Origin: a virus
Strand: one strand, 5' to 3'
Virus record (IMG/VR): IMGVR_UViG_3300034062_005472
Coordinates: 1 to 29,006 of that record
Length of the DNA stretch: 29,006 nucleotides
The notes below the pieces were generated by a model. The model was not told the DNA's origin, did no database searches, and was given only the letters and a program-made list of their open reading frames with translations. This document shows, in pieces, positions 1,266 to 28,444 of this stretch. A program made the translations under genes and the position numbers. Position 1 is the stretch's first letter. Each line of letters begins with the position of its first letter.

Positions 1266-2363
1266 TTATAGATTATGTTGTAAAAATCCTTCTAAGCCAG
1301 TTTCTTTATTCCATATATAAGCTTGTGCACATCTGTAAGCTTCGTAACCCATTTGTTTATGCCAATCATCAGTAGTGCATATAGAAGGTAAAAATCTAAC
1401 TTTAATACCTCTATACTCGTTTACCATTTCTTTATGTAAATGTCCACAATGTGCTTCTCTATGTTTAGTTTCAGCAAACATTATTGGTTGTTCTGTTGCC
1501 ATAATCAATGGAAGATCAGTAGCTTTTTCTTTATCACCATGAGTGTACATTAACATGCAATTTCCATATTTATGATATTTTCTTGGTTCTGTTGCATTGT
1601 TAACATCTACATACTCATCAGATGAGAAATAAGCTGATATTACTTCACCAGCATAGAACATACGTTCCCAATCGTGATTACCTTGTACAACTATAACTTT
1701 AACTGGAGCTATTGATTTTAGCATGCAAATCGCCTTAATTAAAGCATTACAGTAAATACTAAAGGATTCATACCATTTAATTGAATCTGTTTGTGGAGTA
1801 CCACTTGTTGTTGTGCTTCTCATACCTTCAGAATTCATTCCATCGTTTCCAATAGGTAGTATAAAATAATCAATATTAGATTTATTATACTTTGCTAAAA
1901 GACTTGAAATTGAATTAAAGAAGTTATTTTGAAGGTCATTAACATCCCCTTTACCAAAGTGTAAGTCAGGAAGGCTAATTTCAAATGCTACTTTACCTTC
2001 TTTATTAGATGGCTTGTACTTAGGTACTTTTAAATCTTCTAAATCAGTGATGATGTTTTTTCTAAATTCTTCTAAATAATTAACAATAATTTCATCATCT
2101 TTCTTTTTAGCCCAAGATTCAAGCCATTCACCACTTGCAGATTGCCATTTAGATTTTAATACAAAGTTGTCAGGAATTACTTCATTTGATTCTTTAATGT
2201 TTGATTCTTTTCTTACTTGTTTTAAAGCTGTTTCGCATTCTTCTAAAGTTACATCGTAATGTCTTCTTGTTAAGATATCATGAAGACGACCTCGACCTTC
2301 TTTAATGTATCCAGGTTTGTCTTCTAAAAAACGAACAATAGCATTAATGTTTTTTTGGCTCAT
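1266..2363 (-). CDS. Calcineurin-like metallophosphoesterase with N-terminal helical domain
   Basis: The 365-residue protein starts at ATG 2361-2363 (MSQKNINAIVRF). A longer frame exists only through a TTG codon lying inside the promoter, so I reject it. The N-terminal 55 residues look like a small winged-helix or helical domain. The rest carries the full metallophosphoesterase motif series: DLH at about 133-135, GND at about 172-174, GNHD at about 228-231, THG near 275 and GHLH at about 307-310. These residues bind two metal ions in the family and hydrolyse phosphoesters, sometimes nucleic acids or nucleotides. The gene has its own promoter just upstream and leads a short operon with the coiled-coil, small helical and ring-type genes. 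The substrate cannot be read from the sequence. Confidence 0.88.
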   Translation of the reverse strand: MSQKNINAIVRFLEDKPGYIKEGRGRLHDILTRRHYDVTLEECETALKQVRKESNIKESNEVIPDNFVLKSKWQSASGEWLESWAKKKDDEIIVNYLEEFRKNIITDLEDLKVPKYKPSNKEGKVAFEISLPDLHFGKGDVNDLQNNFFNSISSLLAKYNKSNIDYFILPIGNDGMNSEGMRSTTTSGTPQTDSIKWYESFSIYCNALIKAICMLKSIAPVKVIVVQGNHDWERMFYAGEVISAYFSSDEYVDVNNATEPRKYHKYGNCMLMYTHGDKEKATDLPLIMATEQPIMFAETKHREAHCGHLHKEMVNEYRGIKVRFLPSICTTDDWHKQMGYEAYRCAQAYIWNKETGLEGFLQHNL

Positions 2364-2418: not shown

Positions 2419-2880
2419 TTATTTTACACTATTTAAATAATAACCTCCTGCAAACCCGATACATATGAATAAAGGAATACCTTTATTTCTCCAATTTTTC
2501 TTTCTTTGTAGTTCTTTTTCATAACGAACAGCGAGTTCAGTATAGTTATCCGTAAGATTGTTAATCTTATGATCTGCTGTTTGAACAGTATTGTTCAATT
2601 TAGCAACTTCTTTTTCAGATAGTTCTAATGCTTTTTGCAATCCGATGTTTTTTTGAGATTCGGCAAACCATTGATCTAAGAAAAAATTAGCATCGTTTTT
2701 ATACAATTCTTTCCAAATCATCTTTTCTATTAAAAGCTGTTCCTCAGGTTCTGTAAAAGCTGCGTAATTAACGCCTGATAGTTGAATCCTTAGTGGCGAA
2801 TTCTTTTGACCAAAACTCGTCGCGCTTAGTATTAGACCACTTATTAACAGAATTAATTTTATTTTTATATCCTTTAACAT
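2419..2880 (-). CDS. Exported coiled-coil protein with C-terminal membrane segment; spanin-like
   Basis: The 153-residue protein has an N-terminal signal sequence (about residues 6-24, ending SATSFGQ), a central helical/coiled-coil region (about 70-125) and a hydrophobic C-terminal segment (about 134-150). There is no lipobox cysteine, so it is not a classical lipoprotein o-spanin. Its first 113 bp overlap the end of the upstream inner-membrane protein in another frame, an arrangement typical of phage spanin pairs. It lies just after the amidase block. I infer a role in the last step of lysis (disrupting or bridging the outer membrane), with moderate doubt because of the missing lipidation site and the extra C-terminal anchor. 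Confidence 0.65.
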   Translation of the reverse strand: MLKDIKIKLILLISGLILSATSFGQKNSPLRIQLSGVNYAAFTEPEEQLLIEKMIWKELYKNDANFFLDQWFAESQKNIGLQKALELSEKEVAKLNNTVQTADHKINNLTDNYTELAVRYEKELQRKKNWRNKGIPLFICIGFAGGYYLNSVK

Positions 2881-3151
2881 CTTTTTGGTATTTGCTTATA
2901 TCTTTTAATTGTTGTTTAGTAATACTATCATTAACTAATTTTATAGAATCAATCTTATATTGTATTACTGCGTTCTCAGAGATTAAAACAGCTAAAGAAT
3001 CATTCCAATCTTTTCTACTGTTTTCTATTTGATCTACAAGTTTCTTTATCTTTTTAGACTTGTAATTATCACTTATAGTGGGTATAACGAATATTGATAA
3101 AACAATACCCGCTATACCACCAATAAGTATATTCTTAACGTCTTTAGTCAT
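2768..3151 (-). CDS. Inner-membrane coiled-coil protein; i-spanin-like
   Basis: I place the start at ATG 3149-3151 (MTKDVKNILIGGIAG), 127 residues. A start 21 bp further upstream would overlap the previous gene and add a non-conserved-looking tail. One transmembrane helix at about residues 8-26 is followed by a long charged helical region, giving the N-in/C-out layout of i-spanins. The final 113 bp are shared with the next gene in a different frame. Position after the endolysin supports a lysis role. Alternatively it could be an Rz-like protein of unrelated origin; such proteins share topology rather than sequence. Confidence 0.68.
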   Translation of the reverse strand: MTKDVKNILIGGIAGIVLSIFVIPTISDNYKSKKIKKLVDQIENSRKDWNDSLAVLISENAVIQYKIDSIKLVNDSITKQQLKDISKYQKDVKGYKNKINSVNKWSNTKRDEFWSKEFATKDSTIRR

Positions 3152-3153
3152 AA

Positions 3154-3804
3154 TTACGCAAGTAAAGACCATTTCAAAGTTACAGTACCATTAGCTTTTA
3201 AATCATCTTCACCAGATGCAGCCCAACCGTCAGCTACGTTTAAATACACTGTATGTGCATCAGCAGTAGCAATTGATTTAACAGTTGTGATTAAAGCAAC
3301 AGTAGCAGTACCACTACAATCAGCAGCTGTTTGACCAGTGATGATATTTTCAAATGCAGCTGTACCACCAAGAACTGCAACAGCTCCTGTAGCAACAGTT
3401 GTACCAACACCAAGATCTGGGGTGTCAGCAGTTACATTACCATCGTCTTCGGTTAAAGCTACTGACATATAAGCAGAGCTAATTACGATTGGTCCAGCAG
3501 GTAAAGTATAAATTAGTTTACCAAGACCTAAGTTTGCACCACCAGGAATGTCTGCAAAGGTAACATCTGCTAAACTTAATATAGTTGTAAAGTCTTTACC
3601 ATCACCATAAGTTGTAGCTGTAACATTAGTACCAGCAGTACCAACAGCTACTTTAACAGATTCAACTGTCAAGTTTTGGTCTGAAGTTTCAAGTTCATTG
3701 ATAACATCAACAAGTTCGTTGAATTTATCAGCATATACAGGAGATTTTAATGCGCCTCTGCTTGGTTTATCTCTCCTGTTAATTTTTTTAGCCGTATTTG
3801 CCAT
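3154..3804 (-). CDS. Virion-associated beta-rich protein (fibre or head-fibre type)
   Basis: This 216-residue protein starts MANTAKKINRRDKPSRGALK. A basic N-terminus is followed by a short helical segment (SPVYADKFNELVDVINELE) and then a long Thr/Ala/Val/Gly-rich beta domain ending in a W-containing strand. This composition matches the C-terminal domains of the fibre genes at 6668-8242 and 8487-9476. I infer a helical attachment stem with a beta-sandwich head. It lies oddly between the amidase (12 bp upstream) and the spanin-like pair. It could equally be a secreted or decoration protein; no enzymatic motif is visible. Confidence 0.6.
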   Translation of the reverse strand: MANTAKKINRRDKPSRGALKSPVYADKFNELVDVINELETSDQNLTVESVKVAVGTAGTNVTATTYGDGKDFTTILSLADVTFADIPGGANLGLGKLIYTLPAGPIVISSAYMSVALTEDDGNVTADTPDLGVGTTVATGAVAVLGGTAAFENIITGQTAADCSGTATVALITTVKSIATADAHTVYLNVADGWAASGEDDLKANGTVTLKWSLLA

Positions 3805-3815
3805 TGTTTTAGAAT

Positions 3816-4283
3816 TTAAGTGTTATAAAAATTTATTTCTTTAAGCCATTCTTTTACATCAAAAGAAGGGCATAGTTTAACCCATTCGTTAGAAGTTATT
3901 TTACCATCTTTATTTTTATCAGGTGATAAATCTCTATGTCCAACAATAGGTATATTTCCAAGCATTGCTTCGTTTGTTAATTCTTTTAACAACTTTATCA
4001 TTGCTTCTTTTTGTTCATCTGTTCTGTCATCACCTTTTAATCCACCTATATATGATATGTGAACTGAATCGTGATTATATCCTTTTACACCATTTGTTGT
4101 TTTTGACAAATTCTGTAAAAGGTGTCGTTCTCCATTGACACCAATAATGTAACTATATCCTGGATTAGACCATCCAAGTACATTTCGCCAGTAGTTCTTA
4201 ATTTGTTCTACCGTCGCTGTTTGCGAAGTTCCAGTACAATGAATTACGATTCTATTAATTGTTCTCCCGAAGTTTTTAGGCAT
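3816..4283 (-). CDS. N-acetylmuramoyl-L-alanine amidase endolysin (Amidase_2 / T7 lysozyme-like)
   Basis: The 155-residue protein has the zinc-ligand pattern of the Amidase_2 family: H15 in RIVIHCTG, H116 in VGHRDLSPD and C138 in WVKLCPSFD. This enzyme cleaves the amide bond between N-acetylmuramic acid and L-alanine in peptidoglycan. Between the second His and the Cys lies DKNKDGKITSNE (122-133), which fits the 12-residue EF-hand loop D-x-N-x-D-G-x-I-x-x-x-E. Similar insertions occur, to my recollection, in other Bacteroidota amidases. No signal peptide is seen, so export depends on a holin. The start overlaps the GIY-YIG gene by 8 bp. Confidence 0.93.
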   Translation of the reverse strand: MPKNFGRTINRIVIHCTGTSQTATVEQIKNYWRNVLGWSNPGYSYIIGVNGERHLLQNLSKTTNGVKGYNHDSVHISYIGGLKGDDRTDEQKEAMIKLLKELTNEAMLGNIPIVGHRDLSPDKNKDGKITSNEWVKLCPSFDVKEWLKEINFYNT

Positions 4284-4872
4284 ATTTAAAAGTTGTTTTA
4301 TTAATTCTTTTACCAGACAAGTATCTTTGAAGAGTTGAATTATTAATGTTAAATATATTACAAGCTTCTGTTATAGAATCATATAATTTTCCAGTTGATG
4401 TATCTATAACTTTACGTTTAATTTTTTCAACACCTTTTAATGCTCCCCACTTAGGAACAGTAATTTTCTTATTTTTATTTGTATTACTAATCTTTAATTT
4501 TGTTTCATCGCTTACAATATGATTTAATTTTGATTGAGATATTTTTGACTTCCAATCATCAGTAAAGTTTGGTATATACCCATCTACACCTTCACCTCCA
4601 TTTGTAAAATTACAAAGTATTCCTGTTTTATCATCAATTCTACCAAAATAATTAATCCAAAAAATTTCATGCTTTACTGCTTCTTCTTTAGTTAAGTTTT
4701 CAGAAACAACATCAACATCAAAACCATACTTTTTTACAATAATTTTCCACAAACGAGATCTATTATTTTTGTCATATGGTCTTTTAGGTGTACCTATACC
4801 AACATAAAATATATGACCGTTAGTCTTTTTTCTATGAAAATATACAACTTTATTATTTAAATCTTTTTTCAT
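4276..4872 (-). CDS. GIY-YIG homing endonuclease
   Basis: The 198-residue protein has an N-terminal GIY-YIG nuclease module: VVYFH in the first half-motif, HIFYVGIG in the second, an Arg-rich segment after it, the helical EAVKHEIFWINYFG containing the catalytic-type Glu, and an FTNGGEG segment. The C-terminal 45 residues (from VIDTSTGKLYDS) resemble a NUMOD1/IENR1-type DNA-binding repeat with a helix-turn-helix (NSTLQRYLSGK). It sits between the holin-like gene and the amidase, sharing ATGA with the first and overlapping the second by 8 bp. Free-standing enzymes of this kind cut alleles lacking them and spread by repair. It has no visible role in lysis. Confidence 0.88.
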   Translation of the reverse strand: MKKDLNNKVVYFHRKKTNGHIFYVGIGTPKRPYDKNNRSRLWKIIVKKYGFDVDVVSENLTKEEAVKHEIFWINYFGRIDDKTGILCNFTNGGEGVDGYIPNFTDDWKSKISQSKLNHIVSDETKLKISNTNKNKKITVPKWGALKGVEKIKRKVIDTSTGKLYDSITEACNIFNINNSTLQRYLSGKRINKTTFKYA

Positions 4873-5225
4873 AAGTTCATTTTTTCAGGATCACTTTCAT
4901 CTTCGTTATTTGTAACTTTATATGTATGCTCTACATGTTCATTTATTGTAGTTGTCTTATTTGATTTACCATCCAAATAAGCATTTACTCCCATGTAAAG
5001 ACCCCATAGTATAATTAAAGTTTCAGCCCAATCTTGTAGTACTTTAAAAGCATCATCAAATGATAGTTTAAAATCTCCTAAAAATATTAATAAAGCATAT
5101 CCTATTGTAATTAATAATGTACCACTCCATGTAATAAAGTATTTTCTACTATCTTGAATTCTTAGTAATTCACGGTCAGTACCTGCTACAATACGATCTA
5201 TAATATTTTTGAAGAATTGCCACAT
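4869..5225 (-). CDS. Holin-like protein with two membrane segments
   Basis: The 118-residue protein has two hydrophobic segments, at about residues 28-49 (TWSGTLLITIGYALLIFLGD) and 68-85, joined by a short acidic loop, and a charged C-terminal tail. Size, topology and position upstream of the amidase fit a class II-type holin, which would permeabilise the inner membrane to release the endolysin. It is joined to the upstream gene by TAATG and to the downstream GIY-YIG gene by ATGA. No specific holin family is recognised, so the call rests on topology and context. Confidence 0.65.
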   Translation of the reverse strand: MWQFFKNIIDRIVAGTDRELLRIQDSRKYFITWSGTLLITIGYALLIFLGDFKLSFDDAFKVLQDWAETLIILWGLYMGVNAYLDGKSNKTTTINEHVEHTYKVTNNEDESDPEKMNL

Positions 5226-5515
5226 TATTTATGAGTTTTAAAGTTATCTATCAAGTGATCCATTTGAGTTTCTATACGAACTAATTTTTCAATTACAAGT
5301 GTATTTAACGCTCTTTGTTCTTTCATTTCTACTTCTATAAGTTTTATTTTCTCGTCCATTTCTTTAAATTTTAAATCACTCTTGACTGTTAAGTTGTTCA
5401 AGTCATTTACGTTTTTAAAATAAATGGCAATCAGTCCGCCGCAAAAACCAACGATTTGTAATATTAGTTTCCAGTCAACAGATACAATTTGTAATAATGT
5501 TTCATTATTATACAT
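5225..5515 (-). CDS. Single-pass membrane coiled-coil protein, possibly a holin-associated protein
   Basis: The 96-residue protein has one membrane segment at about residues 17-33 (LILQIVGFCGGLIAIYF) and a charged coiled-coil region at about 45-92 (KFKEMDEKIKLIEVEMKEQ and onward). This layout resembles XhlA-type haemolysin/holin accessory proteins, although in those the coiled coil usually precedes the membrane segment. It is coupled to the next gene by TAATG. I infer a lysis-related membrane role, with the alternative of an unrelated envelope protein. Confidence 0.5.
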   Translation of the reverse strand: MYNNETLLQIVSVDWKLILQIVGFCGGLIAIYFKNVNDLNNLTVKSDLKFKEMDEKIKLIEVEMKEQRALNTLVIEKLVRIETQMDHLIDNFKTHK

Positions 5516-18982: not shown

Positions 18983-21130
18983 TTATCGCCTTTCTTTTAA
19001 TTTTGAAAAATGGTTATTCCACCTTTCAATATTATCTTCTACATTTTGTTCTATTTTAGCTTCAATTTTAAATTTATCTTGAGCTAATATCATTAGCATA
19101 CCAAGTGCAGAAACTCTATCGAAGTTACCATCAGGATTCCACCTAATCAATTCTTCAACAAGCATTGGTGATTTTATAGACTGTACATTTAAAATATTTT
19201 CATCAGTTAATGATTTACTTATTAACCATTCTTTAATTAAATCTCTACCCCACCTGTTAACAACTTCGGATGCAGGTGTACCATATCCTTTGTTTCCATA
19301 ACTACTTGTTTTAACCATGTCTTGATCCCTGAGAATCTTAGGTGTAGCTGCTAACAAATAAGTAGAATTCATATTAACAAAATGTTGATATAATCCTTTC
19401 TTAGCATTTTCATAGTTACAAGTAGCATTATAATAAATCAAAAGTCTCCTTAAATTCTCATAATACTCTTTTGCAGTTTTATGCCTTGCTGTATATTCAG
19501 CTACAATTCTACCAGTTAATCTATTCATAATAAAAGTAGACTGTAAAGAACCTTGTAAATCATCATCATCTACAGGGTCTGTTCCTGCAATGTATATACC
19601 AGAAGGTATATTATTAGATGAGTTTCTTATAGGATGTTCAAATATTTCAACACACCCTTGTAGAAACTCAGTAGCTTCAAATGGATACTCCCTAATCGGT
19701 TGGTCATTAGTATTCTTCCATGTAATATTTTTATCTTTATCAAAGACACAAAAACCAGTCCAAATACTATCTAAAATATCTTCCTTAGAATGCATCTGGT
19801 CTTTACGTATTTTCAAATCAGCCATCTGATCTTTGAAGAAGTTACCTTCAACAGTTAAGAAAATCTCAGAAGGAACTAATGGTCTGTTAATTACTCTATT
19901 AGCATACAGCGTTTTATCATCTTGAACCTCCTGTCTGTAATGTTCAAAAAACCTATAAGCTTTATCATAATTAGTAATCAAATTATCACCTTCCTTGAAC
20001 TGAGTTAAAGCCATTGTTGCAGGTACAAAATAACCAATAGGTCGTTTTCTTCCTTCCCAAATATCGTCAAAACCTAAACAATTGTATTTATGCGGATTGA
20101 AGAATATATCATAAGTATAAATAGATGCTGCGCCATTAACTAAACCACCAGTACCAAACATATGTATAACACCAAACTGTACAGCATCAGTAGATACAAC
20201 GTCTTTTAAAGCACCAAGAGTCTCTTTAATATTGTTCATAAAACCAACCTCTTCTAAATATACTTTAGAACAACGAGTACCTGCTGCAGCTAACGGATCA
20301 TCTTTAAACGTTCTGTGATGTATCATAGAACCAGAACTTTGAGATATTAAAGTTTTACCAGATGCAAAACTACCAGTTGTTACTGTACTAATTGGTGATG
20401 GATAAAATTCATCATTATATGTTATACTACCAGGAATATATTTAAATACCTGTTTTACCTTCCTTAAAAGATCTGAAGAATAAAACGAATCAATAGCACC
20501 AACTAATATTTCAGTCTTTAATGGTTCTCCTTTTTTCTTTTGTTCAATATAATAATCATAATCTGAACAACCATCAGTTAAGAATTCATGTACAATATCA
20601 CTTGCAGCAGTCCAGGATTTACCTGAGTCACGGGATTCTAAGTCAATGATATTTTTTTTATCATTATTATACAAAGGTTTACCTAAATTTTTACCATGAT
20701 TTTTTCTAAGATACTCTCTTGCTGGAACATAAATCCTTGTAGATATTTCTTCTTCAGTTATAAAACCAAGTTCTAAAGCCATGTCCTTTTCAGGTCCATA
20801 TCGTCTATCACAAGTATAAACTTCATCAAGTTCAAATCCAGAGAATCCAGCAGCTTCTTGTTTAACAAAAGCTTTATCCCATTCAAGATCTCTAAGATAA
20901 GGTCTTCCTACAACCTTTGATTTATTTCTCTTAGAGTCTGATATACTTATAAAACAAAAATTCACATAAAAATAAAGATTACCAGGCATCCATTTTCCAG
21001 ATACCCAGTAACCTTCCATCATTCGTCTTTTCTGTTCTCTCCACCAGTTCATCCTTTCATAATGTTGTGAAATAGGATTGAACGTTGGCAGTTCAGCAAT
21101 TATAAATTCCTTATTATTAATGTCTTGCAT
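18983..21130 (-). CDS. terL: Terminase large subunit
   Basis: I choose ATG 21128-21130 (MQDINNKEFIIAE), 715 residues. An in-frame ATG at 21157 would overlap the upstream gene by 41 nt, more than any other junction here except the spanin pair. The N-terminal ATPase shows a Walker A-like LESRDSGKSW (about 164-173) and a Walker B-like SKVYLEEVGF (about 288-297). A C-terminal RNase H-like nuclease begins at IAGTDPVDDDD (about 514-524), with its metal-binding Asp. The enzyme cuts concatemeric DNA and pumps it through the portal. Length and context suit crAss-like phages. Confidence 0.92.
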   Translation of the reverse strand: MQDINNKEFIIAELPTFNPISQHYERMNWWREQKRRMMEGYWVSGKWMPGNLYFYVNFCFISISDSKRNKSKVVGRPYLRDLEWDKAFVKQEAAGFSGFELDEVYTCDRRYGPEKDMALELGFITEEEISTRIYVPAREYLRKNHGKNLGKPLYNNDKKNIIDLESRDSGKSWTAASDIVHEFLTDGCSDYDYYIEQKKKGEPLKTEILVGAIDSFYSSDLLRKVKQVFKYIPGSITYNDEFYPSPISTVTTGSFASGKTLISQSSGSMIHHRTFKDDPLAAAGTRCSKVYLEEVGFMNNIKETLGALKDVVSTDAVQFGVIHMFGTGGLVNGAASIYTYDIFFNPHKYNCLGFDDIWEGRKRPIGYFVPATMALTQFKEGDNLITNYDKAYRFFEHYRQEVQDDKTLYANRVINRPLVPSEIFLTVEGNFFKDQMADLKIRKDQMHSKEDILDSIWTGFCVFDKDKNITWKNTNDQPIREYPFEATEFLQGCVEIFEHPIRNSSNNIPSGIYIAGTDPVDDDDLQGSLQSTFIMNRLTGRIVAEYTARHKTAKEYYENLRRLLIYYNATCNYENAKKGLYQHFVNMNSTYLLAATPKILRDQDMVKTSSYGNKGYGTPASEVVNRWGRDLIKEWLISKSLTDENILNVQSIKSPMLVEELIRWNPDGNFDRVSALGMLMILAQDKFKIEAKIEQNVEDNIERWNNHFSKLKERR

Positions 21131-21659
21131 AATATTCTCGTATAGTACTATCCTCATATATCAATTCAATCCAGAACGTATTTAATGTATCAGGAACTAA
21201 GCCTTCCTCATCAAATGTAGTTGGATGAACTAATGCAAAATCAGCACCTGGATATGAACTTGGATAACCATGTGAATTGTAAAAATCAATAACTACCTCA
21301 CATAAATCTCTATAAGGTGGTTCAAGTCCATAACCAGTCAGCAAAGTTGCTAAATCAGAAGCATCTGTAATTTGATTACCATTAAAATCATAAATAAGTG
21401 GTGATTGATTTCCATAATGAGTATTGAAATTCAACATAGTTGTTGCATTAGAAAAATACTCATCAGATACAATATTAACTGGTCCATCATAAACAGTTTT
21501 CCTGTACATCCTATAATTTAAATCTTCAGGTGCATGAACACATAACGAAGTACTCATCTGAACAGATCTATCTTCGATTTCTGTTTTTTCACAACTTACA
21601 AAAAATACAATTGCAATAATAGCTGCAACTGCATATAAATTATTACTTATATTTTTCAT
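21117..21659 (-). CDS. Predicted lipoprotein inside the packaging operon
   Basis: The 180-residue protein has a signal peptide (KN..., then AVAAIIAIVFFVSC) with a lipobox-type cysteine at residue 23, followed by EKTEIEDRS. An acidic stretch right after the Cys is reminiscent of the lipoprotein export signal of Flavobacteriia, so the protein may reach the cell surface. The rest is soluble-looking, with no membrane segment or known domain. It overlaps the chosen TerL start by 14 bp. It is odd among head genes. Superinfection exclusion by a surface lipoprotein is known in other phages and is a reasonable inference here, but not shown. Confidence 0.72.
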   Translation of the reverse strand: MKNISNNLYAVAAIIAIVFFVSCEKTEIEDRSVQMSTSLCVHAPEDLNYRMYRKTVYDGPVNIVSDEYFSNATTMLNFNTHYGNQSPLIYDFNGNQITDASDLATLLTGYGLEPPYRDLCEVVIDFYNSHGYPSSYPGADFALVHPTTFDEEGLVPDTLNTFWIELIYEDSTIREYYARH

Positions 21660-22223: not shown

Positions 22224-22350
22224 CTGTTTTAGATTTTCTTTTAAATTTTTCTTTACTTAAATTATTAATACATTCATATTCAAGGTGTATATCTAATACA
22301 TCAAGTGGTACTGATTCACCACAACCTGGGCATATTACATCATGTGTCAT
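22201..22350 (-). CDS. 49-residue C2HC zinc-finger protein
   Basis: The frame runs from ATG 22348-22350 to TGA 22201-22203. MTHDVICPGCGESVPLDVLD is followed by IHLEYECINN, giving Cys7-x2-Cys10-x11-His22-x4-Cys27. This is close to the UBZ4/Rad18-type and related C2HC fingers. A basic tail follows (KEKFKRKSK). The ATG overlaps the GroEL stop (TAATG), so it is probably co-translated. Its end overlaps the next gene by 23 bp. DNA or protein binding is likely; a ubiquitin link should not be assumed in a phage. Confidence 0.68.
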   Translation of the reverse strand: MTHDVICPGCGESVPLDVLDIHLEYECINNLSKEKFKRKSKTDVDNKNV

Positions 22351-24008
22351 TATTCAAAAGTTTTACCAGCAACGTCCTTACCTCTCTGAATGTTTGCTAA
22401 ATCATTTTCATTAAGTTTGTTAAACACTATTGCTTCTGTTGTTAACATCAAACCTGCAATAGATACTGCATTTTCGATAGCTATACGTGTAACTTTAGCA
22501 GGGTCAACAATACCATATTTAATCATATCATCAACAACTTGTCTATTTCTAAAGTCATAACCTTTATTATTCTCAAAATCATAATCTACTAAACCTTCAA
22601 TAAAACTATAATCTACTCCACAGTTGTCAGCAATCTGTTTAAACGGTACTTTAATAGCTTCAAGTACAATGTTATAACCTTTCTCTTGGTGTGAGTTTTT
22701 AAACTCTGGTTTACTGTTTTCTAAAAACTTAGCAACTGCTAAATAAGAAAAACCACCACCAGGAACAACACCTTCTTCAAGAGCAGCACGTACAGCACAT
22801 ATAGCATCGTCGTACCTATCTTTCTTCTCCTTTACTTCAAGTTCAGTAAAACCTCCAACATTCAATGTAGCGACATTCTCCTTTAAAGTAGCGATACGTT
22901 TATCAAACTTAGCTTGAATCAATTTATGTTTGTCATTCAAATCTTTATGAGATTCAATCTCAGCAATTCGCTTATTAAGATCTTCCTCTGAAATAACTGG
23001 ATCAATAAACGTCGTATTACTTCTTGTAACAACAACCTGTCCACATGAACCTAAGAATAGTTTAGCTTTATCAGCAGCTCTATGAAAAGGATAACCATAA
23101 GCATCACCTACGATTGTAGTTTTAGTAATACATGCAATGTCCTCTAAAAGCTCTTTTCGTTGATTAGCAATACCAGGTGGGAATACTGCACATACCTTCA
23201 AATTATTCTCCTTATAATTAGCTATTAAAGCAGCTTTAGCATGACCAGTAATTTCATCAGCTATAATCAGTAAAGGTCTTTTTTGTTCAACAGCTACTTT
23301 AGCAAAAGGCATCAATGGTTCAAAATGCGTCAACTTCTCATTAGTAATAAACACCAAAGGATTAATTAAAATACTTTCTTGCTTTTCTAAATCAGTTGCA
23401 AAGATTTGATCAATATAACCACAGTCATATTTCATACCTTTGCTAAAATCATAACTTGTTACATTTTCATCATTATTCTTATTTACTTGAATAATACCAT
23501 TTTTACCAATTCTCTCAAATATATCAGCAACTCTTGAAGCTATTTCAACATCATTATTTGCTGATATCATAGCTACATGTTCCAGTTCTTGTCTTGTTGA
23601 AATACTCTCTGCTTTATTTTTTATCATTCTAACAACATCATACAGAGCAAGATTCATTCCAGTCTTTAATTCAATACTATTAGTATTAACTAACTGCTTT
23701 AAACCTTCATCAAAAATAGCCTGTGCTAATACTGTTGCAGTAGTAGTTCCATCACCAGCTTCATCAGCTGTCTTTTTAGCTATATCTTTCAACATAGAAC
23801 AAGCTATATTTTCTATACGATCTTCTAATGTAATCTCAGAAGCAACTGTTACACCATCCTTTGTAATGTGTGGCGTAATGAAGTTCTTATCAATAATTAC
23901 ATTTCTTCCTTGAGGACCAAGCGTTACCTTAACTGCATTAGCTAACGTATCAACGCCTGTCTTCAATTTAAGTCTTGCTTCACTTCCAAAAATAGTTCCT
24001 TTAATCAT
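22350..24008 (-). CDS. groEL: Phage-encoded GroEL-type chaperonin
   Basis: The 552-residue protein is full length for group I chaperonins. It has TLGPQGRNVIIDK (29-41), HITKDGVTVASE (47-58), DEAGDGTTTATVLAQ (82-96, with D86 matching E. coli D87) and DRYDDAICAVRAALEEG with D401 at the place of the catalytic Asp398. The ATP-binding and hydrolysis sites therefore look intact. Two departures stand out: the usually invariant APGFGDRRK of the apical domain reads FPPGIANQRKE (276-286), and the C-terminal GGM tail is absent, the protein ending RGKDVAGKTFE. It lies 7 bp after a GroES-like gene. It probably folds a phage protein, perhaps the capsid protein. Confidence 0.96.
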   Translation of the reverse strand: MIKGTIFGSEARLKLKTGVDTLANAVKVTLGPQGRNVIIDKNFITPHITKDGVTVASEITLEDRIENIACSMLKDIAKKTADEAGDGTTTATVLAQAIFDEGLKQLVNTNSIELKTGMNLALYDVVRMIKNKAESISTRQELEHVAMISANNDVEIASRVADIFERIGKNGIIQVNKNNDENVTSYDFSKGMKYDCGYIDQIFATDLEKQESILINPLVFITNEKLTHFEPLMPFAKVAVEQKRPLLIIADEITGHAKAALIANYKENNLKVCAVFPPGIANQRKELLEDIACITKTTIVGDAYGYPFHRAADKAKLFLGSCGQVVVTRSNTTFIDPVISEEDLNKRIAEIESHKDLNDKHKLIQAKFDKRIATLKENVATLNVGGFTELEVKEKKDRYDDAICAVRAALEEGVVPGGGFSYLAVAKFLENSKPEFKNSHQEKGYNIVLEAIKVPFKQIADNCGVDYSFIEGLVDYDFENNKGYDFRNRQVVDDMIKYGIVDPAKVTRIAIENAVSIAGLMLTTEAIVFNKLNENDLANIQRGKDVAGKTFE

Positions 24009-25634: not shown

Positions 25635-25899
25635 TTATTTCTTTAGAACTAAAGCCCATCTTTTTTAACTCTTTAGTTCCTCTTGGTGTTAAAGCTAATA
25701 GTTTCCTATACCCTTTATGTAAACCAACTTCTTCCATTTCAGCAGCATCTTTAAACATACCTGTAACATAAATATGTTTAATATACCTACTTGTCTTCCA
25801 AACAACATATATCCTATAGTCTGGATTCAACTCTTGAGTCTTTTGTTTTTCTTCCATAATCAACTCAAGTTCCTTCAAATACTCATCTATCATATTCAT
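25612..25899 (-). CDS. Small protein with a strong Shine-Dalgarno site
   Basis: The 95-residue protein starts MNMIDEYLKELELIMEEKQK. It has a strand-rich middle (YRIYVVWKTSRYIKHIYVTG) and a helical end (RGTKELKKMGFSSKEINERY). It shares ATGA with the secreted-protein gene before it and overlaps the next by 23 bp. It is preceded by GGGAGGAG, unlike most genes here. No family is recognised. Confidence 0.62.
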   Translation of the reverse strand: MNMIDEYLKELELIMEEKQKTQELNPDYRIYVVWKTSRYIKHIYVTGMFKDAAEMEEVGLHKGYRKLLALTPRGTKELKKMGFSSKEINERYETN

Positions 25900-26513
25900 C
25901 GTATTCTCCTCCCTAATATGTCATAGTTTAACATTTTATTTTGTTTAAATAGTTTGTATTCCTCAACTGTCATACCTAACAAATTCTCACCACACAGTAT
26001 CAATTCAAAACAACCAGTAGACCAACCAAAACCATCTACCTCAAATATATACTGTCCTGCTGGTAAAACAACAGTAACATCCCATTCAGTAACTGATGGA
26101 TCAAAATTAATAATACTCGTCTCAACATCAGACATCCAATAACAATTAGTACCAAATATCATATCTTGACAACTTGTATAAATAAAGAACTGTATCCCCT
26201 CATTATATCCATTAGCAGTATAAATAGCCCCATCAAGATTGTAATCAGATTCTAAACTAACACAAAGAAACGTATCCTCTGTAAGATCAAAGCTATACCA
26301 CTGATTATAATTATGATATGAACATGTAAAGTTATTAGGTAATGTCTCATCTTGTATATCCTGTGTACAATCAAAGTTACATCCATTAACAACAACAGGT
26401 AACGTTAACTGCTCAGGTGTTTCACAATTGTCATTAAGACACTGTGCTAAAGGAGATGTTACAATAAAAAGTCCTATAAAGAAATTACTTATTTTACTTT
26501 TCGAGTTCAGCAT
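25896..26513 (-). CDS. Secreted Cys-rich protein with flavobacterial-type domain
   Basis: The 205-residue protein has a signal peptide (about 1-24, FFIGLFIVTSPLAQ) and ten cysteines in the mature part. The pattern NQWYSFDLTEDTFLCVSLES, then DGAIYTANGYNEG, CYWMSDVETSIINF and LPAGQYIFEVDGFG resembles, to my recollection, a domain common in secreted proteins of Flavobacteriia. The end NYDILGRRIR resembles the start of a type IX secretion C-terminal signal (Y-D-x-L-G-R), but it stops there. This suggests acquisition from a host. It is in the leftward operon 7 bp into the end of the leader gene. Function unknown; surface or extracellular action likely. Confidence 0.72.
   Translation of the reverse strand: MLNSKSKISNFFIGLFIVTSPLAQCLNDNCETPEQLTLPVVVNGCNFDCTQDIQDETLPNNFTCSYHNYNQWYSFDLTEDTFLCVSLESDYNLDGAIYTANGYNEGIQFFIYTSCQDMIFGTNCYWMSDVETSIINFDPSVTEWDVTVVLPAGQYIFEVDGFGWSTGCFELILCGENLLGMTVEEYKLFKQNKMLNYDILGRRIR
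25906..25913 (-). promoter_or_regulatory. Strong Shine-Dalgarno-type ribosome binding site
   Basis: GGGAGGAG lies 6 nt ahead of ATG 25897-25899. It extensively matches the anti-Shine-Dalgarno sequence, while capsid, portal, groES and amidase starts here show only A/T-rich leaders. It sits inside the end of the secreted-protein gene. Confidence 0.7.
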
Positions 26514-26902: not shown

Positions 26903-27619
26903 ATGATTGGTATATACACAATTACGAACAAACTAAATAATAAATGTTATTTAGGTAGTTCAACTAATATTCAAAGAAGGTGGCAACAACATCGTACTGA
27001 ATTAAAACATAATAAACACAATAATAAAAAGTTACAGAATGCTTATAATAAATACGGTAAGCATAATTTTATTTACAAAGTAATAGAAGAATGTTCTAAA
27101 GAAAACCTAATCCAAAGAGAACAATATTATCTTGATAATATTGATTCTAAAAATTTATATAATTTATTAAAAATAGCTGGAAAAGGTGGTTCTGAAATAC
27201 AACGTGTAGAAACTTTTGTTTTAGATTTACATGGTAATATTGTTTGGAAATTTGAGTCATCTTATGCTGCGATTAATCATTTACAAATAACAAGATTAGA
27301 TTATAGGAGATTAAATACTCCAAGTATATTTAGATTTAATAATCAAAGATACAGAATGGTAACTAGGTCATTTTATGAAAATAACTTTTTAATTATAAAA
27401 TCTTGGAAAAATTACACATCAAATTTTGAAATAAAAAAAACAAATATAAAATTATATGAAGTGTATAAACAAGGTGTTTTAAAATATACATTTAAAACAA
27501 GAAAAGAATGTGGCTTATTTTTAAAAGTCAGCGTAGAAAGAATAAGACAATTATTGAATTCTAATGGATATCATAAACGTACTGGTTATAAAATAGTTGA
27601 AAAAAACATTGTACAATAA
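26903..27619 (+). CDS. GIY-YIG homing endonuclease at the divergent promoter
   Basis: The 238-residue protein starts MIGIYTITNKLNNKCYLGSS, the canonical GIY...CYLG pair of the GIY-YIG fold, followed by NIQRRWQQHRTELKHN with the conserved Arg/His region and LIQREQYYLDNIDSKNLYN with the catalytic-type Glu. Two DNA-binding repeats of the NUMOD1/IENR1 kind follow: VLDLHGNIVWKFESSYAAI and VYKQGVLKYTFKTRKECGL, the latter with an HTH-like VERIRQLLN. It is the only gene between rightward promoters 1 and 2. It likely cleaves a site in related phages and copies itself there; possible targets are the flanking promoter DNA. Confidence 0.9.
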   Translation: MIGIYTITNKLNNKCYLGSSTNIQRRWQQHRTELKHNKHNNKKLQNAYNKYGKHNFIYKVIEECSKENLIQREQYYLDNIDSKNLYNLLKIAGKGGSEIQRVETFVLDLHGNIVWKFESSYAAINHLQITRLDYRRLNTPSIFRFNNQRYRMVTRSFYENNFLIIKSWKNYTSNFEIKKTNIKLYEVYKQGVLKYTFKTRKECGLFLKVSVERIRQLLNSNGYHKRTGYKIVEKNIVQ

Positions 27620-27637
27620 AAATAAAAATTTTTCAAG

Positions 27638-27673
27638 TTTGTATAAAAATGTCAAAAATTTTTTGTACCTTTG
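27638..27673 (+). promoter_or_regulatory. Rightward promoter 2
   Basis: TACCTTTG (27666-27673) is a full -7 box. TTTG at 27638-27641 is 24 bp upstream, longer than the usual 19-21, so the -33 assignment is less certain. The 16 nt before the -7 box, TGTCAAAAATTTTTTG (27650-27665), match those of rightward promoter 1 at the same offset and include the dyad CAAAAATTTTTTG. It would drive the gene at 27776 with an approximately 95-nt leader. Confidence 0.75.
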
Positions 27674-27677
27674 CGGT

Positions 27678-27702
27678 GTTGTAAAGCAAACAAAGCTACA
27701 AC
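27678..27702 (+). promoter_or_regulatory. 5'-end hairpin of the rightward transcript leader
   Basis: GTTGTA (27678-27683) pairs with TACAAC (27697-27702), with a further GC/GC pair inside. The hairpin would lie at the very 5' end of the transcript from promoter 2 (expected start near 27680), a place that often protects mRNA from decay. The rest of the leader to 27775 shows purine-rich patches (GGAAGGG, AAGGGAAA) but no other clear structure. Confidence 0.5.
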
Positions 27703-27775
27703 AAAGAAGTTGAAGCCACTAAATCACATAAGGAAGGGTGTATTATTAACAAGGGAAACCATTTAAACCAAAAAC

Positions 27776-28444
27776 ATGGCAAAGCTATTTATTTACGGAC
27801 TCGAATTTGATACTAAACTATTAGAGTCACAGGGTATAGAAGTACAACGAGTAATCGATGATTTATTTGATCTTGAAGATCTCTGTACTAAAGCATCAAG
27901 TAATTTACACAACAATTATAAGTTTAGCATCCCAATTACATTTACTGATTCTATTAACGGGTATTGTTACAATTTTGAAAATAATAAATACATAGATTAT
28001 ACTCTTACAACTAAATCACCATTTTCTATTGTTACAAGTACTAATAATGAAATTTTATTACTAGATACAAATTTAAGTATAGATAAACAAAATGATTTGA
28101 TAAAAACATTATTAGAAAAAAATAACATAGAATATAGACTATTAACAGGTAACCCAAAAGTTGGAGATGTTTTTGAAATTAATATTTCAAAACTAAGTGA
28201 AGTACAAACAAAACAATTAAAACGAATATTAAAAATTAAAATTATGGAAACAATTTACGGGGTTGAATACAACCCAAAACTATTAGCAAAGTATGACATT
28301 ACTCACGAAACAATGTTAAACGATCTTGAACCATACAAAGGTAAACTATTAGCTCTTGGTTCTAAAAACGAATCTGCTAAAATTACAACTGAAGGTGGAA
28401 CCTATGTAATTGAAAAAGGCGTTTTGATCTCTATTGAAAAGTAA
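27776..28444 (+). CDS. Unknown protein with internal duplication
   Basis: The 222-residue protein starts MAKLFIYGLEFDTKLLESQG. Residues 5-30 (FIYGLEFDTKLLESQGIEVQ and onward) and 159-184 (TIYGVEYNPKLLAKYDITHE and onward) align without gaps at 10 of 26 positions, so the protein contains a repeated module at each end. The middle carries an alpha/beta segment (NEILLLDTNLSIDKQNDLIK). There is no signal peptide or membrane segment. It has its own promoter and a terminator after it, and so may be a separate early transcript. Early anti-host or DNA-metabolism genes often lie in such places, but no function can be assigned. Confidence 0.75.
   Translation: MAKLFIYGLEFDTKLLESQGIEVQRVIDDLFDLEDLCTKASSNLHNNYKFSIPITFTDSINGYCYNFENNKYIDYTLTTKSPFSIVTSTNNEILLLDTNLSIDKQNDLIKTLLEKNNIEYRLLTGNPKVGDVFEINISKLSEVQTKQLKRILKIKIMETIYGVEYNPKLLAKYDITHETMLNDLEPYKGKLLALGSKNESAKITTEGGTYVIEKGVLISIEK

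Follow-up and report, generated by a model that had tools for sequence, protein, structure and literature searches.

Gene content of the locus

The window, the whole 29,006-nucleotide stretch of viral DNA that we analyzed, carries the late genes of a crAss-like phage on its minus strand. This assignment is based on a Crass_capsid major capsid protein (E 5e-143) and on a crAss-type portal and terminase; by terminase, the closest phage record is Cellulophaga phage phi14:2 (36% identity), which is annotated as Crassvirales. The late order runs through terminase, portal, capsid, tail and fibre-type genes, and a 96-aa protein of helix and coil to a lysis block built from a holin candidate, an endonuclease-like gene, an amidase, a 216-aa gene, the overlapping genes A and B that are the subject of this work, and a phosphoesterase (Table 1). 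A preliminary description had placed the A/B pair after the amidase. The amidase is upstream as stated, but not directly, as the 216-aa gene stands between; judged from its composition, the product of this gene is perhaps a virion, fibre-like protein.

Table 1. Features of the lysis block, in window coordinates
Feature	Coordinates	Strand	Remarks
Metallophosphoesterase	1266..2363	-	downstream flank of the slot; anchor for locus comparison
Gene B, 153 aa	2419..2880	-	predicted signal peptide, beta-hairpin, long helix, basic stretch, Gly-rich hydrophobic segment
A/B overlap, 113 bp	2768..2880	-	codes the A C-terminus and, in frame +1, the B signal peptide with about 12 residues of mature B
Gene A, 127 aa, i-spanin-like	2768..3151	-	predicted N-terminal membrane helix and ~100 aa periplasmic coil
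216-aa gene separating amidase from A	3154..3804	-	no family match; product guessed
Endolysin, N-acetylmuramoyl-L-alanine amidase	3816..4283	-	Amidase_2, PHROG 822
Holin candidate, 118 aa	4869..5225	-	two hydrophobic helices by eye; relative in locus L064 39% identical
96-aa protein, N-terminal hydrophobic helix and coil	5225..5515	-	adjoins holin candidate; PHROG 739 'Rz-like spanin' weak, E 0.038

The holin candidate has no match to any holin family. We considered the adjoining 96-aa protein as a real i-spanin and dropped it; similar proteins of helix and coil lie near the holin in the related loci L064 and L168, and in L168 such a protein coexists with a single beta-type protein at the position held here by A and B. 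A gene at 4276-4872, GIY-YIG-like by eye (Pfam reports HTH_psq only), is inserted between the holin candidate and the amidase and overlaps the amidase start by 8 bp; a GIY-YIG endonuclease gene lies at 26903-27619. The window also encodes a GroEL-type chaperonin (22350-24008; Cpn60_TCP1, E 7e-59), likewise annotated in phi14:2 and phi38:1, and an exported 205-aa protein (25896-26513) without a match in Pfam or NCBIfam, whose C-terminal end, KMLNYDILGRRIR, is similar to the opening part of a type IX secretion sorting domain. Since the window covers only part of a genome expected at about 90-100 kb, another spanin could lie outside it; elsewhere in the 29 kb, no ORF combines a lipobox with a C-terminal helix. 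A 180-aa lipoprotein-like ORF (FVSC) just upstream of the terminase (21117-21659) ends without such a helix.

Gene A has the build of an i-spanin

An i-spanin consists of a single N-terminal TMD and a periplasmic coiled coil, and A has both, the coil being judged from sequence. Its one hydrophobic helix spans residues 8-24 and reaches a peak 17-mer Kyte-Doolittle value of 2.59. A longer A ORF, starting at 3172, is less likely because the stop of the upstream gene lies at 3154-3156. Near its C-terminal end, A carries an RDEFW motif, found as RDSFW, RDSLW or RDSMW in four relatives. In several members, this RD[ES]FW motif faces the cleavage region at the end of the B signal peptide, and one stretch of DNA within 2768-2880 may be under two constraints.

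No Pfam, PHROGs or NCBIfam model recognizes A or B of the window above its cut-off. A has no spanin-family match, its best PHROG match being a holin (E 0.047). Relatives of A weakly match the PHROG 'Rz-like spanin', with E 2.8e-4 as the best match of L163 A and E 1.9e-3 for L195 A, among others, although these matches may reflect just the build of helix and coil. The A protein of L182 matches a bacteriocin/immunity family (E 0.006). There is no Cys in A and a single one in B (Cys140, inside the C-terminal helix), leaving the pair without a periplasmic Cys, as holds entirely for ~4% of two-component spanins in the figures taken from a published survey (PMC6139136).

Gene B has a predicted signal peptide and ends in a hydrophobic segment

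The N-terminus of B is hydrophobic and ends in SATSFG/Q, without a Cys near the cleavage site, so that the signal peptide is most likely cut before Gln25. Ten of the 12 B proteins described below have G, S or C before the presumed cut and Q after it, a pattern typical of type I cleavage in Bacteroidota. Residues 44-152 are predicted to form a helix; towards its end come a run of basic residues, KELQRKKNWRNK, and then a hydrophobic segment rich in Gly, GIPLFICIGFAGGYYLN, with a three-residue tail. The preliminary description gave B a signal peptide, no lipidation Cys and a C-terminal membrane helix. The first two statements hold. For the third, the hydrophobic segment is real, but its peak of 1.28 is weak, the lowest among the 12 relatives, and a membrane helix is likely rather than certain.

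An AlphaFold2 model of B built from 9 sequences draws a signal helix (2-22), a hairpin (31-42) and one uninterrupted helix (44-152), at a mean pLDDT of 80.7 and a pTM of 0.37, to be read knowing that AlphaFold favours long helices. Fold searches returned no match with E <= 0.001 in BFVD or the PDB, and no family library names B. What profile and fold searches did return were matches to coils, such as spike S2 stalks at E about 0.1-0.9, which are not meaningful.

The overlap and its likelihood by chance

The overlap of 113 bp in different frames was described exactly, with B read in +1 relative to A. The entire signal peptide of B is coded within A. Of 1000 synonymous shuffles of the codons of window A, 187/1000 leave the +1 frame open across the length of the overlap, and 45/1000 do so with a signal-like helix as well. 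Across the 11 members put through the same test, the values include 4/1000 (L190), 20/1000 (L195), 304 (L240) and 354 (L065). Taken alone, the overlap in the window is only moderately beyond chance. We judge the pair to be real because it recurs in 12 divergent loci with B always in +1. Spanin gene pairs are embedded, overlapped or adjacent in the lysis cassette, and A and B are of the overlapped kind.

Recurrence of the pair in related phages

Relatives were gathered through the flanking genes, the capsid and B itself, and the slot, defined as the space between the endolysin and the phosphoesterase or g255, was then read. The pair is present in 12 distinct loci: the window, L003, L064, L065 (counted together with the nearly identical L066), L070, L163, L171, L190, L195, L238, L240 and L243. 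B is in +1 in 12/12, and the overlaps measure 95-152 bp. The closest relative found is L003, where A (126 aa) and B (162 aa) overlap by 128 bp directly after the amidase; its B is 26% identical to that of the window (E about 5e-9 to 3e-10), and its A matches at E 0.001. BLASTP values against L064 are 2e-15 for B and 5e-8 for A. Among the first nine loci, BLASTP links the window, L003, L064, L065, L190 and L195 by B or A, and L163 to L171; L070 has no BLASTP link to the other eight, and L163 B matches window B at only E 0.015. From these comparisons, the pairs could belong to a single family that has diverged strongly, or some of them could be convergent.

Eleven of the 12 loci have an endolysin-type gene a short way upstream of the pair. 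It is an amidase in the window, L003, L064, L065 and L190, a DUF5675 putative endolysin in L163, L171, L238 and L240, and a member of other endolysin families in L070 and L195; the calls for the window, L064, L163, L171, L070 and L195 are backed by family search or BLAST, and the remainder were made by eye. One gene separates endolysin and pair in the window, L065, L190 and L195, and A begins 4 bp inside the amidase end in L003 and L064. In L243, no endolysin was found in the upstream stretch read. The L243 pair (3748-4456) carries RDSMW and a possible AIAC lipobox, and lies on a 160-kb contig that exceeds the crAss-like genome size.

Searching viral contigs with window A or window B as single queries returned no relatives. 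Against phages, window B gave two chance-level coil matches only, and the B proteins of L163, L190 and L195 gave nothing useful, as did two B queries against genome contigs. A B profile run over 50 of the 56 records first listed (all except L021, L035, L039, L045, L051 and L055) returned four true matches (G001, G005, G009, G010) and one chance match in phi14:2.

What occupies the slot

Comparison with the lysis blocks of crAss-like phages, which the preliminary description had proposed as a check, places the pair in the 12 loci above and a unimolecular spanin (u-spanin) or a single protein in the slot of some other relatives. A script sorted 167 of 172 loci into 99 anchor clusters, the other 5 loci having no anchor. 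This classification is crude: it mislabeled the window, for its weak C-terminal helix, and L171, for a lax lipobox. Two of its pair labels were dropped, L191 on reading the sequence and L208 for multi-helix proteins. The pair accounts for 9/99 clusters after correction (nine labelled by the script, of which seven were kept, with the window and L171 added). U-spanins, with a lipobox and a C-terminal helix, occupy 10/99 (L162, L172, L181 and L186 among them), several of these labels depending on a lax lipobox pattern such as VFGC, FTSC or TTSC. In 10 further clusters, the script found a single protein whose N-terminus is a helix and whose other end is beta-rich; on reading, phi14:2 g076 and the slot proteins of L164, L166, L168, phi38:1 and P2559Y are of this build. 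With the L171 label corrected, no cluster holds both a pair and a u-spanin. The slot rule is not universal, as the script found none of these types in 61 of the 90 clusters with at least 2.5 kb upstream. Nine of those 61 were read: L153 holds a single beta-type protein, and the others resemble other phages with other lysis genes. The cultured Bacteroidota phages 11b and 6H carry a u-spanin right after the endolysin; out of eight phage records read in addition, FpV4 and FCL-2 have no spanin-like gene directly after it.

Two comparisons show how the occupants of the slot are exchanged. L163, with a pair, and L164, with a single protein, share a holin (78% identical), an endolysin (88%) and a downstream 100-aa gene (59%), and their slot proteins have no sequence match. 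A common endolysin family (28-33% identity) is followed by a u-spanin in L162, a single beta-type protein in L168 and a pair in L195. Because slot genes are exchanged and one of the options is a known spanin type, the occupants most likely do the same job, and the L163/L164 swap is good evidence that the pair does the job of a spanin. The view of A and B as a spanin-like pair, maybe a variant for Bacteroidota envelopes, is supported by the u-spanins of relatives and of 11b and 6H and by the L163/L164 replacement.

The single slot proteins are located at 7231-7809 in L001 (phi14:2 g076), 3892-4512 in L164, 2294-2818 in L166, 3279-3863 in L168, 44184-44783 in L246 and 22998-23621 in L247. By eye, they have about four amphipathic C-terminal strands, and some end in an aromatic residue. 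It is possible that they are spanins anchored in the outer membrane by a beta-type end; for L164, a model draws four C-terminal strands, but at a pLDDT of 38.9 it is too poor to use. The different build of phi14:2 g076 led us to drop it as a possible homologue of either A or B. Beside the lysis genes of crAss001 (gp27; L236, 25066-25695) and B124-14 (ORF016; L234, 6765-7370) lies a protein with an N-terminal helix, a coil and a beta-like domain.

Lipobox and charge pattern of B

Two-component spanins have a lipobox in the o-spanin and unimolecular spanins have one at the N-terminus; window B has neither, and the topology fits the standard form of neither kind, as first noted. Under a lax lipobox pattern, 9/12 B proteins, the window among them, have no accepted Cys. 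The three that do are L171 (TSNC), L240 (IGNC) and L243 (AIAC), which count against a strictly lipid-free B family. In L171 and L240, the Cys immediately precedes the conserved Gln, at the position of Gly or Ser in other B proteins.

A u-spanin has its C-terminal TMD in the inner membrane. B also has a hydrophobic C-terminal segment, but with a reversed charge pattern. The first nine B members have 4-8 basic residues within the 15 preceding the C-terminal helix and a tail of 0-6 residues after it. Lys plus Arg before minus after the helix amounts to +3 to +7 in B (n=12) versus -2 to +2 in u-spanins (n=12; ten from the slot, 11b and 6H), at a P of 3e-5 that is too small because the members are related. 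When all members were included, differences between B and u-spanins in glycine and hydrophobicity did not persist (P 0.05 and 0.20). The reversal relative to the u-spanins of the slot argues against a plain inner-membrane anchor and favours insertion of the B helix from the periplasm, with the outer membrane as its possible target.

A proposed mechanism and its alternatives

We propose that A and B are probably the spanin of this crAss-like phage, a two-component system that disrupts the outer membrane and in which another means of anchoring has taken the place of the lipid. A would reside in the inner membrane, its coil extending into the periplasm. B would be exported and cut before Gln25, leaving the hairpin and a single helix of some 109 residues that, at about 16 nm, would roughly match the periplasm in length, and the two proteins would associate through their coils. 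Once holin and amidase open the wall, the C-terminal helix of B, preceded by its basic cluster, would engage the opposite (outer) membrane, and the A/B complex would draw both membranes together. The destination of the helix is the least certain step, the outer membrane and the inner membrane each having somewhat less than an even chance. Lipid-free anchoring in the outer membrane is possible but doubtful. More tentatively still, the pair may define a class of spanin whose outer-membrane partner does without a lipid: its C-terminal hydrophobic helix, preceded by a basic collar, would enter the membrane from the periplasm, much as a tail anchor or fusion peptide does, and hold the protein there. 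If so, then together with the beta-ended slot proteins, Bacteroidota phages would have several unrelated lipid-free routes to the outer membrane.

The closest competitor, a plausible reading that we hold at well under an even chance, makes B a type I inner-membrane protein (N-out, C-in) beside a type II A, with the outer membrane contacted through the N-terminal hairpin of B or an unseen third protein. Textbook type I proteins do combine a cleaved signal peptide with a hydrophobic segment at the C-terminal end; however, the charge pattern of B and its tails reverse the positive-inside rule for a C-in anchor, and the outer membrane is left without a known anchor. B could also be, or recently have been, a lipoprotein, that is, a u-spanin whose lipobox is lost or hidden and to which A was added as a partner. 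B and u-spanins have in common the slot and the order of signal, coil and C-terminal helix, and three B proteins have a lax-lipobox Cys, but the other nine do not, and in L171 and L240 the Cys is placed as expected of a type I cut site, making this origin unlikely.

We consider it similarly improbable that the pair regulates lysis in the manner of an antiholin or excludes superinfecting phages instead of breaking the outer membrane. Antiholins and exclusion proteins also include small membrane-anchored periplasmic coils, and the holin match of window A and the bacteriocin/immunity match of L182 A point in this direction; against it, canonical u-spanins replace the pair in the slot, and the swap between L163 and L164 speaks for spanin function. 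That one or both are virion proteins is the least probable reading, and very unlikely. The pair is flanked on either side by structural-type genes, and the gene separating amidase from A may be one of them, but a signal peptide, coil and membrane helix would be unusual in a virion protein, and in phi14:2, annotated by virion mass spectrometry, the non-homologous slot gene g076 is without the MS/MS note that many of its neighbours have.

Comparison with known spanins

Kongari 2018 defines two-component spanins by a lipoprotein o-spanin and leaves topologies of other kinds, type I inner-membrane proteins and outer-membrane proteins for example, outside its criteria (PMC6139136). That study counts 91/677 phages without a spanin, including Bacteroides B124-14 and Croceibacter P2559S and P2559Y (PMC6139136). 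A 2025 survey removed any o-spanin that had no lipobox and reports that Bacteroidetes phages use unimolecular spanins and no other kind (PMC12596118), and a flavophage paper annotates unimolecular spanins (PMC8776804). Our searches of one open-access library brought up no title on a lipid-free spanin pair in Bacteroidota, crAss-like or Flavobacterium phages. There has been very little work on how Bacteroidota phages, those of the gut crAss-like group included, rupture the outer membrane; the presence of a lipid-free pair at the position of a spanin would explain why surveys miss such systems and gives concrete genes to work with.

The pair resembles the two-component Rz/Rz1 spanins of lambda in that a coiled-coil protein with an N-terminal helix is followed, beside the endolysin, by an exported partner overlapping in +1. 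Unlike Rz1, B is without a lipobox; it is also a larger protein (140-168 aa) that consists for the most part of a single helix and has a hydrophobic helix at its C-terminus. With unimolecular spanins of the T1 gp11 type, B has in common the slot, the signal sequence and the C-terminal hydrophobic helix, but it differs in having no lipidation Cys, basic residues before the helix and a very short tail, and in always occurring with A. The single slot proteins with an N-terminal helix and a beta-strand end occupy the same slot and are swapped with the pair between L163 and L164, whereas they are encoded by one gene, end in strands and not in a helix, and are unrelated in sequence. By the lipobox criterion, the pair stands outside the canonical two-component and unimolecular kinds, and yet it probably works like a spanin.

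The nearest parallel in a cultured phage is P2559S (NC_018276.1, L235; 27300-28065), in which gp29, a protein of helix and coil directly after the endolysin, overlaps a +1 ORF by 167 bp. This ORF (27508-28065), of which GenBank annotates the 3' part only (from 27826), encodes 185 aa with a signal peptide ending in LALS/Q, a coil and a beta-like end (...FYYGGRLSFAIW). The partner differs from B in ending in beta-strands by eye, and no homology is seen with A or B. The arrangement itself is alike, with an A-like protein and a +1 partner of signal peptide and coil without a lipobox, in a phage that stands on the published list of those without a spanin (PMC6139136).
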